Below the pieces are notes generated by a model. It saw only the letters and a list, made by a program, of their open reading frames with translations. It was not told the origin of the DNA and ran no database searches. Shown here piece by piece: positions 3,028-7,927 of a stretch of 9,640 nt of DNA. The stretch is from NCBI GenBank assembly GCA_020353135.1, contig CP070688.1:2853949-2863588 (forward strand), in the 5' to 3' direction. A program made the translations under genes and the position numbers. This DNA comes from Chloroflexota bacterium. GTDB taxonomy: Bacteria > Chloroflexota > Anaerolineae > Promineifilales > Promineifilaceae. Every line of letters starts with the position of its first letter. Position 1 is the stretch's first letter.

Positions 3028-3804
3028 ATGAGTGAATTAGAGCAATCAGCGGAATCCTACGGTGATGAACTGACGCAACAGGGCGTAGCGGACCTGACCG
3101 AAGGTCTGGACGACCTGGAGCTTGCAGCTGCAGCGGAAGACGTATCAAAGGCAGCCATTGCCGCCGGCGCCAGCGATGTCACTCGCGGCGTGGATGAAAT
3201 GATCGTAGCCGATCGCCTGGCACAGTTAAGCGAGATCGTCGGCGAGGCCGGCGTGACGGACGTGGCCGAGGGTCTTGAGCTTTTGGAGGCCTCAGAGGAC
3301 GTCGATCTCTTTAGCGCCATGGTAGGCCTGATGAGCGCCGCAGATGTGGAGCGCGGCCTGGAATTGGCCCGGATCGCCGGAGAATTGACGGCCATTAGCG
3401 ATGTGGTGGACCTGCTAGAAATGCCGATCCTGTCCGATATCCTTCAGTCACGAGGCTCGGCGTTAGAGGTGGCCGCCGTCGACGTGATGCTGCAGGCGGT
3501 GGGCACTCGGGCGCTGTCCGTAGCCATGAGTGATGAGGCTAAACGCATCTCTGATCTGGGCGCCGAAGAAGCGGCCGAAGGGTTGGCCCGATTGGCGGCA
3601 TCAGCCGGCCTGGCAGCGACCAGTGATGAGCTTGGTTTAGCTGGAGCTGAACTAACAGCTCAAGGAATAGCCGAGGTTGAAACTGGCGCAGCTCTCGGAG
3701 ATGCCGCTCGGGAGATGGCAGTTGAAGGTGTGGGTGAAGTCGCCGAAGGCGCCGCAGAGTTAGGCGCCGCGGCCGCTCTTGAAGATAGCGAACAAGACGA
3801 ATAA
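3028..3804 (+). CDS. Highly acidic Ala-rich repeat protein, unrecognised family
   Basis: I do not recognise this 258-residue protein. It has 57 Asp/Glu against 11 Lys/Arg (only two Lys), no Cys, Trp, His or Asn, and a single Pro, so it is strongly acidic and probably helical. It has no signal peptide or membrane segment and looks cytoplasmic. The motif G-x-x-[D/E]-[V/L/A]-x-x-G-[L/V/A] recurs at residues 19, 47, 75 and 103 (Ser for Gly in the last), an exact 28-residue period, and again at 178, 213 and 234 with looser spacing. Examples are GVADLTEGL, GASDVTRGV and GVTDVAEGL. The start has a good Shine-Dalgarno (AAGGGAG, 3011-3017). A perfect hairpin and then a gene for an arginine-rich peptide follow, suggesting a charged partner pair. 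That function is inference; the codon pattern and strong ribosome binding site support a real gene. Confidence 0.8.
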   Translation: MSELEQSAESYGDELTQQGVADLTEGLDDLELAAAAEDVSKAAIAAGASDVTRGVDEMIVADRLAQLSEIVGEAGVTDVAEGLELLEASEDVDLFSAMVGLMSAADVERGLELARIAGELTAISDVVDLLEMPILSDILQSRGSALEVAAVDVMLQAVGTRALSVAMSDEAKRISDLGAEEAAEGLARLAASAGLAATSDELGLAGAELTAQGIAEVETGAALGDAAREMAVEGVGEVAEGAAELGAAAALEDSEQDE

Positions 3805-3832: not shown

Positions 3833-3861
3833 CGAGTGGCCCAATTGTATTGGGCCACTCG
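3833..3861 (+). terminator. Perfect 12-bp hairpin between acidic-protein and Arg-rich genes
   Basis: CGAGTGGCCCAA (3833-3844) pairs perfectly with TTGGGCCACTCG (3850-3861) around a TTGTA loop. It starts 29 bases after the acidic-protein stop and ends 15 bases before the Shine-Dalgarno of the Arg-rich gene. AAAAGTCCACC follows directly and a TTTT comes only 10 bases later, so it is not a standard U-tract terminator. It may be a partial terminator, an RNA processing or stability element that sets the ratio of the two products, or a protein-binding palindrome. Confidence 0.5.
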
Positions 3862-3876
3862 AAAAGTCCACCTTTT

Positions 3877-3882
3877 AAGGAG
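3877..3882 (+). promoter_or_regulatory. Shine-Dalgarno of the Arg-rich peptide gene
   Basis: AAGGAG is placed 9 bases before the ATG at 3892, close to ideal. This decides the ATG at 3892 over the GTG at 3887, which is only 4 bases away and would open a different, unrecognisable frame. Confidence 0.7.
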
Positions 3883-3891
3883 TTGAGTGCT

Positions 3892-3978
3892 ATGCCTGCA
3901 AGAAGAAGAACAGCCCGTCGGGCGGGGCGTCGTACAGCACGCCGCACTTCAAGGCGCACATCGAGACGCAGACGCTAG
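3892..3978 (+). CDS. Arginine-rich 28-residue protamine-like peptide
   Basis: A 28-codon frame from ATG to TAG. Of 28 residues 15 are Arg, with 4 Thr, 2 Ser, 4 Ala, one Gly and one Pro, and no acidic residue. After MPAR, RR pairs occur at 5-6, 9-10, 13-14, 17-18, 21-22 and 25-26, a strict four-residue repeat of the form [T/A][A/G/S]RR, ending RRRR. Arginine is spelled with five different codons (AGA, AGG, CGT, CGC, CGG), so the protein repeat is not just a simple DNA repeat. A near-ideal Shine-Dalgarno precedes it. Such composition is known in protamines, viral nucleic-acid-packing arms and some histone-like tails, so binding of DNA, RNA, polyphosphate or the acidic protein just upstream is plausible but inferred. 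RRTS at 17-20 and 21-24 resembles a basophilic kinase site. It has no recognised family. Confidence 0.7.
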   Translation: MPARRRTARRAGRRTARRTSRRTSRRRR

Positions 3979-4164
3979 ACCTATAAGAGGTCGGGAAACA
4001 AAACCAGCTAGCTCGAGTCATCACCAATTCAGTTCACATCATCCTGCGTTTTGTCCGCAGTCTGTTAGCGCTGCCTATAACCCCGCAATTTGGAGCTAAA
4101 TGAGGTATTATGATGTTACCCTAGCGTCTGGCTACCTCTTTAACCAAGCTCCGAGGATCAACTT

Positions 4165-7100
4165 ATGGCTAGTGAAGGACGCCCCATGATCAATTGGCGA
4201 GGGATAGCGATTACGGGACTGGCCTATGGCGGCGGGTTGATGGCCGGCAACATCGTCGCGCAGATCCTGTTTAGCTTGATTAGTCCTCTGCCGTATGGCT
4301 GGCTTGGCGAGGCAGCCCGGCTACTCATCGGGATCCTGGTCGTAATGATCGTCACCGGATCTGGCGCTGCGATAGGCGGCTTCCTGGGCGGCTGGACACT
4401 GCCAGTTATCGGCAAGCCAATGGGGAAATACGGTTACGCCTGGCGGAGCGCGCTCTCGGTCGGTCTCGTTTATGGGACATTCCTGGTCGTGGCCGTCTTC
4501 GCCATATCTTCGCTGACCGTACGGGACGCTGCCTTACTGCCGGTCAGTCCGTTCATGCAGGTCTATATGCTGGTGGGCCTTATCACTGGGGCGCTCATCG
4601 GATTGCTTCTTGGACTTACGACGGTGGGCTGGCGCCTCACCGGCTCATTGGTCCTGGCAGGAATGGCCGGTTTCGGGCTTGGCGGCGCCGCCCTTGGCGC
4701 GGCGATCTGGGCCTATTTGAACACTGCCCCTCCTGGCGCGATCTATGATGGTCAGTACGCCTATTTGATGATTGGCTTATTCATTTTTGGCTTGTTTGGA
4801 GGACTGGCCATAGGATTGGCCTACGATAGATTAGCGCGAAGGGCTTCGGATCATGCGCCTAAACCGCCGCGACGCTGGATTCGTTATGCCGCCTATGCCC
4901 TCGTAGGGCTCATTGCCCTCTGGCTCGCGATGCAGTTGCGGCCGTTCTTCGCATTTCTGCAAGATTACTTAACCCCAAGATGGGCCTTGGATACAGAGAC
5001 CATTGCCGCAGATTCGGTCGGTACCCACTGGCAGGTGAGTTCGCCATTCCAAGACGAGATCGCCGAAGTTGAGGCGTTGGATTTGAGCGTAGGCAAGCCG
5101 GGCGCGTTGGCTCTGGCTTCGATTGAAAGGACGGACGCCAGCGCAGATGTGGCTCTGCGGATAGCGCAATTTGAAGGTGATGGAGCGGCCGCATGGGGAC
5201 CGCCGGTCAGCGTCTCAGATTCGCCCTCAGAGTTACACGCAATCAGCGTGGCCGCCGATGCCACAGGCGATATTCACGTTGCCTGGTTGGAGGGCGACGA
5301 TGGCGTCGCCTATTACAGTCGCTGTTCTAACGTCGATTGTATGGTGCCTCGGCCGCTCACAGATGCGGCCGTCAGTTGCTCCTCGGGATCGGAAGGTCCG
5401 GATGCTCTTACGATAGACGTGGCCGCCAGCCCCGATGGGACGGTCATGGCGGTCTGGTCCGATCCACAGGGTGGTCTGGCCTATCGCACCTTGCCGGATG
5501 GCGAACCAGATTGTGTGCCATTGCCGGGGGACGCAGCCACAGGTACTTTTTCGCTCGCCAGCCGGCCTGCATCCGGTTTCTCGCTTACACTCGCCGATCG
5601 ACAAAACGCTGTCTGGCTGATGGAATACGCAAACGATGGTTGGGGCTCGGCGGCCGTTGAAATCGGCGCCGGCGTCCGACCCGATCTGCTGGTAACTGAG
5701 TATGGATCTGCACTCGTCGTGTGGTGCGCCGAAGGTGGCGGGGTTGAGTTGTGGAACGATGGGCAAACCGAACTGCTTTCGCAGCTTTCGTGTAAGAACA
5801 AACCAGCTATCGCCCTTGACGGGGACGGCCGATACCATGTCGTGTGGCGGTCCGATCAAGTTGAAGACGTGTTGGGCGAAGTGAAGCAGGACGAAGTCCT
5901 CTATGAAACGATTGGCGATGGCGAATCGTGGAGCGAACCGATGATCGTCGCCCGGCTCGAAGAGTCTTCTGACTACGGGATGGTCAGCGATCCGACCGGC
6001 GAATTGCATCTGGCCTGGAACGACCTGGATCCTGCGATTCACTATGCCCGGCAGCGGGCTTATGAGTGCGATCCCGGCGTGCTGGCGGGTGCCGAAGCCG
6101 GATTGTACCAGGTGGCCAGCCAGGGTGGATATCGGCCCCAAGACGATGTGATCCCCTTCTGCCAGAATAAGTACGAAGAGATGTTCTTCACGCCTACCGT
6201 CGACCCCGCGTTCTCCGAGAAAGAACCAACCCTGAACGGGGGATACGACGACTACGCTGAGTTAGTGCTGCAAGCGGATCACGAAGTGCTCTTCACGACG
6301 ATGGCCTACTCCAAGGCCGTCAATCAGGATAGCCCCGGCGCGGTACAGGCCCAAGCTGTTGTCGATCTGTACGAGAAGGTAAAGGCCAATCCCGAGAATT
6401 ACCCACGCGGAATGACTGTCCGGCTCCTGCTGGGTAATTCGCCGACAATCAACTTCGAACTGCTGGAATCTGATGGCGGGCTATGGTACATACTGGAAGA
6501 TCTACAGGCGGCCGGATTGGAGAAGATGGTTGACCCGGAATTGGGATGGCGGGTGGAGGTTGGAAACTATTCGGGCCGCTATCCGTACAGCCATGTCAAG
6601 ACCATGATCATCGACGGCGAGACGGTGGTCGCCTCCGGCTTTAATCATGAGTACAAACCTTTGCCCCAGGATCACCCGTCTGGTCTGGGCAAGGGAGACA
6701 CAGATACAGCTTTGGTGATAACCGGCCCAGTCGCCCAGCACTCGCGGCAGATCTACGACCGGTTGTGGACGGGAGCCATTCAACGTTACTGCCCGGACCT
6801 ATCGCTCAGTGAAACCGAATTACGCCTGACTTGCGAAGATTCGCGAGGAGTGCCGGACCATGCGCCGGAGGTTATGCGCTATTCACAGGCAGATGACGAT
6901 GCGGTCGCCTTCTCGATGTTCAGGAGCCACGTGTATGACGAGGCGGACCAACAGATTTTGGCGGCCTTTCATTCGGCCGAGGAGAGCATTGACGTAGCCC
7001 AGGCCATGTTCAGTGCGGAGTTGATCTGCAACCTCAACCATTTCTTTGATGTTTGCGACTTCGGCCAGGCGCTTCCGTATATGGAGGCGTTAATGGACGC

Positions 7101-7449
7101 TGCGGAACGAGGGGTCAAGATTCGCATCCTGTTGACGCCCTACCCTACGCAAAATATCGAAAACATCATCGCCATGGAAATCTTCAATCACGAATTGGCT
7201 GAGAGGGGCCTGGGCCGTAACGTCGAGATTCGAATGTATGATCATTTGCTGCATTCTAAGAGCGCCTTGATCGACGGTGAGTTCGTGATCGTCGGCAGCC
7301 AGAATCTACATTGGAGCGCTTTTGGCGAAGAAAATGGCTTGAACGAGTACAATCTGGGTGTAGGGGACCAGGCGGCAGCCGATCAATACCGGCGATTCTT
7401 TGACTACATGTGGGAGCGTGCGCCTAGCCGGATTGAAACGGCCGCGTAA
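4165..7449 (+). CDS. Multi-pass membrane protein with propeller-like region and C-terminal phospholipase D domain
   Basis: A 1094-residue protein. Seven helices are predicted near 13-36, 52-74, 95-116, 132-154, 158-184, 199-222 and 240-258. Positive loops (KPMGKYGYAWR; RLARR...KPPRRWIR) are cytoplasmic by the positive-inside rule, which places everything after about 260 outside. Residues about 290-640 hold repeats typical of beta-propeller or BNR-like sequences: DATGDIHVAW (365), PDGTVMAVW (423), DGDGRYHVVW (552) and DPTGELHLAW (609). The C-terminus is a phospholipase D superfamily domain with two HKD motifs: H810-x-K812-x4-D817 followed by ASGFN, and H1030-x-K1032-x4-D1037 followed by GSQN. 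Both catalytic sets are complete, so phosphodiesterase or transphosphatidylation activity on lipid or another phosphodiester is likely; the substrate is unknown. Cysteines in the outer region could form disulfides. GAGGA at 4153-4157 supports the ATG. Confidence 0.9.
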   Translation: MASEGRPMINWRGIAITGLAYGGGLMAGNIVAQILFSLISPLPYGWLGEAARLLIGILVVMIVTGSGAAIGGFLGGWTLPVIGKPMGKYGYAWRSALSVGLVYGTFLVVAVFAISSLTVRDAALLPVSPFMQVYMLVGLITGALIGLLLGLTTVGWRLTGSLVLAGMAGFGLGGAALGAAIWAYLNTAPPGAIYDGQYAYLMIGLFIFGLFGGLAIGLAYDRLARRASDHAPKPPRRWIRYAAYALVGLIALWLAMQLRPFFAFLQDYLTPRWALDTETIAADSVGTHWQVSSPFQDEIAEVEALDLSVGKPGALALASIERTDASADVALRIAQFEGDGAAAWGPPVSVSDSPSELHAISVAADATGDIHVAWLEGDDGVAYYSRCSNVDCMVPRPLTDAAVSCSSGSEGPDALTIDVAASPDGTVMAVWSDPQGGLAYRTLPDGEPDCVPLPGDAATGTFSLASRPASGFSLTLADRQNAVWLMEYANDGWGSAAVEIGAGVRPDLLVTEYGSALVVWCAEGGGVELWNDGQTELLSQLSCKNKPAIALDGDGRYHVVWRSDQVEDVLGEVKQDEVLYETIGDGESWSEPMIVARLEESSDYGMVSDPTGELHLAWNDLDPAIHYARQRAYECDPGVLAGAEAGLYQVASQGGYRPQDDVIPFCQNKYEEMFFTPTVDPAFSEKEPTLNGGYDDYAELVLQADHEVLFTTMAYSKAVNQDSPGAVQAQAVVDLYEKVKANPENYPRGMTVRLLLGNSPTINFELLESDGGLWYILEDLQAAGLEKMVDPELGWRVEVGNYSGRYPYSHVKTMIIDGETVVASGFNHEYKPLPQDHPSGLGKGDTDTALVITGPVAQHSRQIYDRLWTGAIQRYCPDLSLSETELRLTCEDSRGVPDHAPEVMRYSQADDDAVAFSMFRSHVYDEADQQILAAFHSAEESIDVAQAMFSAELICNLNHFFDVCDFGQALPYMEALMDAAERGVKIRILLTPYPTQNIENIIAMEIFNHELAERGLGRNVEIRMYDHLLHSKSALIDGEFVIVGSQNLHWSAFGEENGLNEYNLGVGDQAAADQYRRFFDYMWERAPSRIETAA

Positions 7450-7633
7450 ATCCTCTAGATCCCGGCCTCCCCACTTGCGGCCGTCTCTGATTTGGCCCAT
7501 CCGGTCTGGCGTGGCTCGGCTGTGGGCGTCTACAGCCTGTGGCGCGATAGCAGTTTTACCGCCGGAGCGATCATCGACGGCCTGTGTCCTTCGCCCTTGT
7601 TTTTTGCCGCCGGCGGCTTTCTGGCTTACTTCA
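7450..7633. other. Unassigned intergenic stretch after the PLD gene
   Basis: No start codon with a ribosome binding site and no recognisable protein was found. A short frame from 7492 (MAHPVWRGSAVGVYSLW) resembles nothing I know and dissolves into the pseudogene region that follows. AIIDG encoded near 7567 might be a trace of the phosphotransferase IIDW motif in another frame, but this is weak. No T-run terminator for the PLD gene was seen. Confidence 0.4.
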
Positions 7634-7920
7634 GCCGATCCGCCGCCGGGCACATCCGCCATCGCGCGTCAACTCATTGGGATCACCAGGGGATTGTTCA
7701 ACAAGATCTATTTGCGCCGGTATTTTGAGCTTCGGCCGGATGTCCGGCGAGAGTTTGAGGCCTGGCGGGTGCTGGTCGCCGCCGCCCGGTTAGGGATGGC
7801 ATTGAGCAAGAGCAGGAAACGCTGTTGGCGCTCGTCGATGCTCTATCGCTCACACAGAATGTGGGAGAACTACATGAAAAGCCAGGGCGCTGGCCATGGG
7901 CATGTGGGCGACCGGCGTGA
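7634..7920 (+). pseudogene. Frameshifted C-terminal remnant of an APH-like phosphotransferase
   Basis: The frame at 7634-7792 reads PPPGTSAIARQLIG, GLFNKIYLRRYFELRPD, then REFEAWRVLVAAARL. This strongly resembles the C-terminal helical part of aminoglycoside phosphotransferase (APH) family kinases (YLRRY...RP...EAW..VVAAARLAEGI). At 7793-7794 the frame shifts: one missing base after the Leu codon separates it from DGIEQEQETLLALVDALS at 7795-7848, which is the expected next piece of the family. The recovered part is about 70-75 residues of a roughly 270-residue family, and the catalytic HxDxxxxN and IID loops are absent or unrecognisable upstream. It is therefore a decayed remnant, not a working kinase. 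The frame finally stops at 7918-7920. The tail after about 7850 carries the 23-base repeat and is probably not original coding sequence. Confidence 0.55.
7877..7899. repeat. 23-base exact direct repeat, copy 1
   Basis: The sequence beginning AAAAGCCAGGGCGCTGG and ending CCATGG is identical over 23 bases to 9410-9432. This copy lies in the pseudogene tail, 28 bases outside the MFS stop codon. Flanks do not match beyond the 23 bases on either side. Confidence 0.8.
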
Positions 7921-7926
7921 GCCCAC
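7904..7926 (-). terminator. Possible weak hairpin after the MFS gene
   Basis: GTGGGC (7904-7909) and GCCCAC (7921-7926) pair across an 11-base loop immediately past the MFS stop (minus strand, stop at 7930-7928). The stem is short and there is no T-run, so this is only a candidate terminator. Confidence 0.25.
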
Positions 7927-7927
7927 G

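Follow-up and report, generated by a model that had tools for sequence, protein, structure and literature searches.

Protamines are short, Arg-rich proteins without acidic residues, and in all three respects they are resembled by a 28-residue peptide encoded by a small open reading frame (ORF) in the bacterial DNA analysed here, a stretch of 9,640 nucleotides that we refer to as the window. Unlike protamines, the 28-mer displayed homology with the N-terminal leader found in larger proteins that carry a SHOCT domain at the C-terminus. In its first description, SHOCT was associated with nucleic-acid binding and oligomerisation as hypotheses, of which oligomerisation was not supported by that study's own test (PMC3581485), and a role in anchoring or assembling proteins at the membrane has been proposed for SHOCT-like domains (PMC11237479). 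The SHOCT domain itself, as described in PMC3581485, is absent from the window and is tied to it only via full-length relatives, and nowhere in its main text does that description use the term arginine. A survey of the literature on SHOCT, DUF1269 and protamine-like Arg-rich small bacterial proteins, judged in part by listings, revealed no description of such an Arg leader. The 28-mer had no match in Pfam or the PDB, its biased composition lowering the sensitivity of such searches.

The ORF and its ribosome-binding site were located as follows:

3877-3882, + strand: AAGGAG ribosome-binding site, 9 bases 5' of the ATG at 3892

3892-3978, + strand: 28-codon ORF, assigned as a leader of the Arg-leader SHOCT family on its translation, a 24/27 match to the family member P0130 and the controls given below; TAG directly after the RRxx array

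The translation, MPARRRTARRAGRRTARRTSRRTSRRRR followed by the stop, contains 15 arginines, with RR starting at residues 5, 9, 13, 17, 21 and 25 and additionally at 4, 26 and 27, while no acidic residue is present and the calculated charge is +14.5. Arginine is encoded by AGA (5), CGC (5), CGT (3), CGG (1) and AGG (1). Translation and counts thus agree with the preliminary description, which had reported a 28-residue ORF with 15 arginines and no acidic residue, RR at every fourth position six times, five different Arg codons and AAGGAG nine bases ahead of the ATG. Among the stop-free 28-codon stretches of the window in six frames, this region displayed the highest Arg density (15; runner-up, 12), and the probability of its twelve fixed Arg positions was ~6e-12, given an Arg frequency of 0.117 across the six frames; the RRxx pattern is therefore not a product of chance. 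As a separate observation, AGA accounts for 5/15 Arg codons in the 28-mer versus 8/128 across the large genes of the window (p 0.005 by Fisher's test).

The lead to a protein family came from a search of 34 genomes at a loose threshold with the 28-mer as the query, which returned 25 matches in 13 genomes. The best of these was found in genome G055 (E 0.0105, 81% identity across 26 residues), the remaining 24 having E values from 0.06 to 10; a search of 396 genomes with the 28-mer at E ≤ 0.01 passes over the G055 match (E = 0.0105). The matched region corresponds to the N-terminus of a 162-residue protein and to no short ORF (G055:C169:21168-21653), and this protein possesses the SHOCT domain PF09851 (39.2 bits, cut-off 27). 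A protein search with the G055 sequence identified 404 proteins at E ≤ 0.001, and PF09851 was precomputed for 117 of the 120 among the matches listed (the best 120 of 404). From these 120, we used the 78 proteins of at least 144 residues with at least 10 Arg within the first 32, leaving out the other 42. They define an architecture of roughly 145-170 residues, found in Anaerolineae genomes, in which an Arg leader is followed by a hydrophobic segment, an acidic linker and the C-terminal SHOCT domain (PF09851), a pair of helices.

The N-terminal RRxx leader that begins at the start Met in this family is present in the window ORF. The 78 leaders, all from among the matches listed, contain 3-8 consecutive RRxx units, compared with six in the window, and their commonest inter-RR dipeptides are AG, AA, TA, TT, VA and TS, a set to which every dipeptide of the window (TA, AG, TA, TS, TS) belongs. 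Like the window ORF, the Arg-leader SHOCT proteins P0130, P0119 and G055 possess the RRxx repeat with mostly A, T, G, S or V between the pairs; part of the family shares its MP.RRR start, and the G055 member also combines a ribosome site with mixed Arg codons. An AGGAG/GGAGG-like string was identified at 18 of the 20 SHOCT-gene starts among those listed, a count that includes a start in L130 chosen by this very string. The closest leader among the matches listed, that of P0130, shares 24/27 residues with the window ORF, ungapped and from the Met. In controls with the arginines held fixed, the score of the window was reached by 0/3000 sequences with random non-Arg residues and by 1/3000 in which the window's own non-Arg residues were shuffled, and shuffled versions of the 28-mer averaged 92 versus the observed 118. 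An earlier control, for which the first 40 of the 78 leaders were used and the observed score was 106, discriminated less well (random, 0/2000; shuffle, 31/1000). When 15,054 Arg-rich 28-residue stretches from the loci were compared with 13 leaders, the top scores belonged to SHOCT-family leaders, and the best score outside them was 73 (L111). The ratio of best to self score was 0.86 for the window leader, and 0.65-1.00 (median, 0.90) for full-length leaders in a leave-one-out comparison.

As aligned, the strict RRxx repeat of the 28-mer is not new but corresponds to the N-terminal leader of the SHOCT family. This homology does not support the proposal of an overlooked stand-alone protamine-like gene, and a protamine-like, polyanion-binding mini-gene was set aside as first explanation on the same ground. 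Within the family, the Arg leader changes from one homologue to another in steps of whole RRxx units (12 nt), for instance in P0119 and P0124, a variation reminiscent of a short tandem-repeat array, here set in a protein pattern that is conserved.

The window and G055 leaders share 21/26 residues versus 4/26 codons, with pS 0.89 and pN 0.16, so that the protein pattern is conserved rather than the DNA. Amino-acid selection is supported by this comparison for the Arg leader, not for a 28-residue protein as such. The earlier suggestion of selection on the peptide consequently stands for a genuine coding sequence whose residues are kept over codons relative to G055, and is not supported for a stand-alone 28-mer.

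Compared with the roughly 145-170 residues of the Arg-leader SHOCT proteins, the window ORF ends after 28, and the rest of the architecture was sought in the region that follows:

3979-4164, + strand: expected place of the hydrophobic segment, linker and SHOCT domain, none of which was traced by model search or frame reading

A post-leader model built from the 78 listed family proteins, which recovers relatives, gave no match to the window in any frame, also with filters off, and the three forward frames 3' of the TAG contained neither a hydrophobic segment nor SHOCT. The hydrophobic segment, the acidic linker and the PF09851 SHOCT domain are all absent from the window ORF, and since it has no SHOCT domain it is a fragment of a family member and no working member. 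The GC content is 0.632 in the 28-codon leader and 0.468 in 3979-4164. A SHOCT gene interrupted simply by a frameshift or a point stop was ruled out because its remainder could not be traced downstream in any frame. A small transposable element at 3969-4130, bounded by a 10-bp inverted repeat, was also rejected, as the repeat was at chance level by estimate and the region contains a second 10-bp pair.

The neighbouring genes provide the context in which this fragment has to be read:

89-625: intact DUF1269 copy (ORF list, Pfam)

2888-2938, + strand: remnant of the 5' end of a second DUF1269 gene, comprising 16 codons (MSELIVITYDTEDSAG followed by a stop) and resembling DUF1269 protein starts

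3028-3804, + strand: acidic Ala/Glu-rich protein of 258 residues, pI 4.05, calculated charge -46

3833-3861, no strand assigned: inverted repeat, perfect over 13 bp and with a loop of 3 nt, in the gap that separates the acidic gene from the leader

4165-7449: 1094-residue protein whose N-terminal part is hydrophobic and whose C-terminus carries PLDc_2 (ORF list, Pfam)

The DUF1269 remnant, which stands where the usual upstream neighbour of the acidic gene would be expected, has its own AAGGAG ribosome site and, together with the 28-codon leader, leaves the acidic gene flanked by two amputated starts of genes that accompany it at other loci. The acidic protein had no Pfam, NCBIfam or PHROGs match; its relatives were identified in five Chloroflexi/Anaerolineae genome contigs and its family in 25/396 Anaerolineae genomes, while relatives of the PLD protein were present in 14/396. 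The inverted repeat at 3833-3861 has no T-run and yielded no terminator-like call, and its exact 12-base arm string GAGTGGCCCAAT had no match in 182 loci; it may be a terminator, a processing site or an mRNA-end structure. Overlapping open frames, four of these without a Pfam match, occupy 7450-7927, which may be a decayed gene.

In the loci of some relatives, the acidic gene lies near DUF1269, ion-channel and SHOCT genes. The nearest relatives of the acidic protein, P0002 and P0003, show 68 and 72% identity across 67 and 56% of the query and come from metagenome contigs of 2.1 and 4.6 kb. Our scan covered 35 acidic-gene loci of relatives (L001-L005 and L071-L100), some of them truncated at contig ends, and 13 PLD loci. 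On one strand of L004 (G004:C54), DUF1269 and the acidic gene are followed by a full-length, divergent Arg-leader SHOCT gene that starts ~330 bp beyond the acidic stop. One strand of L082 (G386:C314) carries a SHOCT gene and, 1.2 kb away from it, DUF1269, which precedes the acidic gene and then an ion channel, and in G055 the SHOCT gene lies ~6.4 kb from an acidic-family gene on one contig. By a rough estimate, chance would place three Arg-leader SHOCT genes within 7 kb of an acidic gene with a probability of 2e-4, as computed for 33 loci versus the 35 in hand and assuming 1.2 copies and 5 Mb per genome. SHOCT proteins without the Arg leader were found at four further acidic loci (L003, L075, L088 and L090). 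The SHOCT query had a best E ≤ 1e-10 in 22 of the 396 genomes, not all checked for the leader; these overlapped with the 25 acidic-family genomes in 10 cases versus 1.4 expected and included 9 of the 14 PLD genomes versus 0.8 expected, both excesses being inflated by kinship.

Comparison of sequences establishes both the leader homology and the absence of the remainder from the window, and we consider it likely that the 28-codon ORF is all that survives of an Arg-leader SHOCT gene, namely its 5' end, the remainder having been lost. According to this reading, the SHOCT gene would have lost everything after the leader, so that a stop codon now follows the last arginines, in a manner like the truncation of its DUF1269 neighbour. 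The loss may have been recent, because the 28-mer is no further from the family than full-length leaders are among themselves. Read-through from the acidic gene might still transcribe the remnant, and its intact start might allow translation into a +14.5 peptide that would have no conserved role of its own and would, if made, be a loose polycation beside the -46 protein. Several observations count against the loss of the remainder as a full account. The immediate order of acidic then SHOCT gene was found in one locus only (L004), where the leader is divergent, and P0130 and P0119, whose leaders are most like that of the window, were compared without genomic context. Moreover, the leader shows no decay relative to the family, and its ribosome site and start are intact; since a neutral fragment of any age would be expected to drift, this implies a recent loss or continuing selection on the peptide.

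The second of these options corresponds to a retained microprotein, in which the leader, once cut from its SHOCT gene, would have been kept as a free polycation, with the acidic protein, nucleic acid or the membrane as its binding partner. We regard this as unlikely, albeit worth keeping in view: the undecayed leader with its ribosome site and start would suit it, as would the residues conserved over codons relative to G055 and the position of a +14.5 peptide adjoining the gene for a -46 protein. That conservation, however, was measured on the leaders of full-length proteins and is silent on the time after the cut, and the like amputation of the neighbouring DUF1269 gene suggests local gene decay. 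Rather doubtful, too, is the more specific proposal that a free 28-mer polycation, made from the same transcript as its acidic partner (+14.5 beside -46), would form an electrostatic complex with it.

The search for relatives further argues against a retained microprotein, as no free-standing leader was recognised in 366 genomes nor among 36 protein-database candidates. The 366 genomes were searched with a 14-sequence leader model at E ≤ 0.05, which yielded 26 matches in 23 genomes. Two were clear (G335, 1.8e-7; G055, 6.1e-5), and both are full-length SHOCT proteins; the other 24 were weaker (E 0.0017 and above), and four of these possess a start accompanied by a ribosome-like string and run for 38, 68, 60 and 36 residues to the stop. 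The 36-residue ORF, in G225, was rejected as a free-standing leader because it arises from reading a longer repeated gene out of frame, and the other three lack an RRxx run comparable to that of the window. The locus concerned (L180) holds three near-identical tandem gene copies, the third clipped by the locus end, whose KEGHKEGHEKGE-like repeat casts the off-frame basic ORF and which are unrelated to the 28-mer. The 36 candidates came from a protein-database search with the 42-residue frame that contains the 28-mer, and none reached E ≤ 10, short ORFs often being unpredicted in such databases. The same short ORF with the same stop was not found in related genomes (366 genomes, 35 acidic loci), and the test proposed earlier also gave a negative outcome, as none of the 35 loci of relatives showed the tiny ORF downstream of its acidic gene. 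Small basic ORFs with a ribosome site in the 48 loci (9 rows, 7 distinct) were without the RRxx repeat.

An artefact of assembly or strain mixing, in which a whole SHOCT gene exists but has its 5' end fused to other sequence in the contig, appears improbable: two clean-ended 5' fragments do lie within 1.1 kb (2888-2938 and 3892-3978), but the acidic gene between them and the PLD gene that follows are long intact ORFs. Finally, an unrelated low-complexity peptide that resembles the leader by convergence is highly improbable: Arg-rich repeats do align easily (shuffles average 92 versus 118), but the match is ungapped from the Met with the MP.RRR start and the dipeptide order preserved, the two controls gave 0/3000 and 1/3000, and the genomes found with the SHOCT query overlap those of the neighbouring genes.

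Other origins were also considered. An RNA element was rejected, as no Rfam match reached the gathering score, and a plasmid or phage origin was set aside, the acidic protein and a 1.5-kb stretch having no match in plasmids. A tblastn search of phages and plasmids with the 28-mer was empty, a result that low-complexity filtering makes uninformative, and relatives of the acidic family in viral contigs were sought with none confirmed.

By the positive-inside rule, an Arg leader ahead of a membrane-spanning segment should stay cytoplasmic. In the intact SHOCT protein, the Arg leader would therefore lie at the cytoplasmic membrane surface, ahead of the hydrophobic segment, where it would attach the protein to anionic lipid head groups or to a different polyanion beneath the membrane, and SHOCT would take part in complex assembly at the membrane. 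The hydrophobic segment is likely to span the membrane; over 17 residues, its hydropathy reaches a modest peak (1.46 in P0130 and 1.64-1.82 in three others). A structure model of P0130 had a mean pLDDT of 66, with block means of 51-56 for the leader, in which a helix at residues 7-26 is unreliable, and 78-87 for residues 71-100 and the SHOCT helices. The hydrophobic segment was modeled as low-confidence strands and not as a helix.

Our analysis replaces a tempting 'bacterial protamine' with a testable reading, and it illustrates how the truncated start of a gene can be mistaken for a microprotein. For the SHOCT family, it indicates that the Arg leader keeps its RRxx pattern while the codons turn over. 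For the organisms concerned, it points to a gene set that co-occurs in part of Anaerolineae and comprises the acidic, PLD and SHOCT proteins, joined at some loci by DUF1269 and an ion channel.
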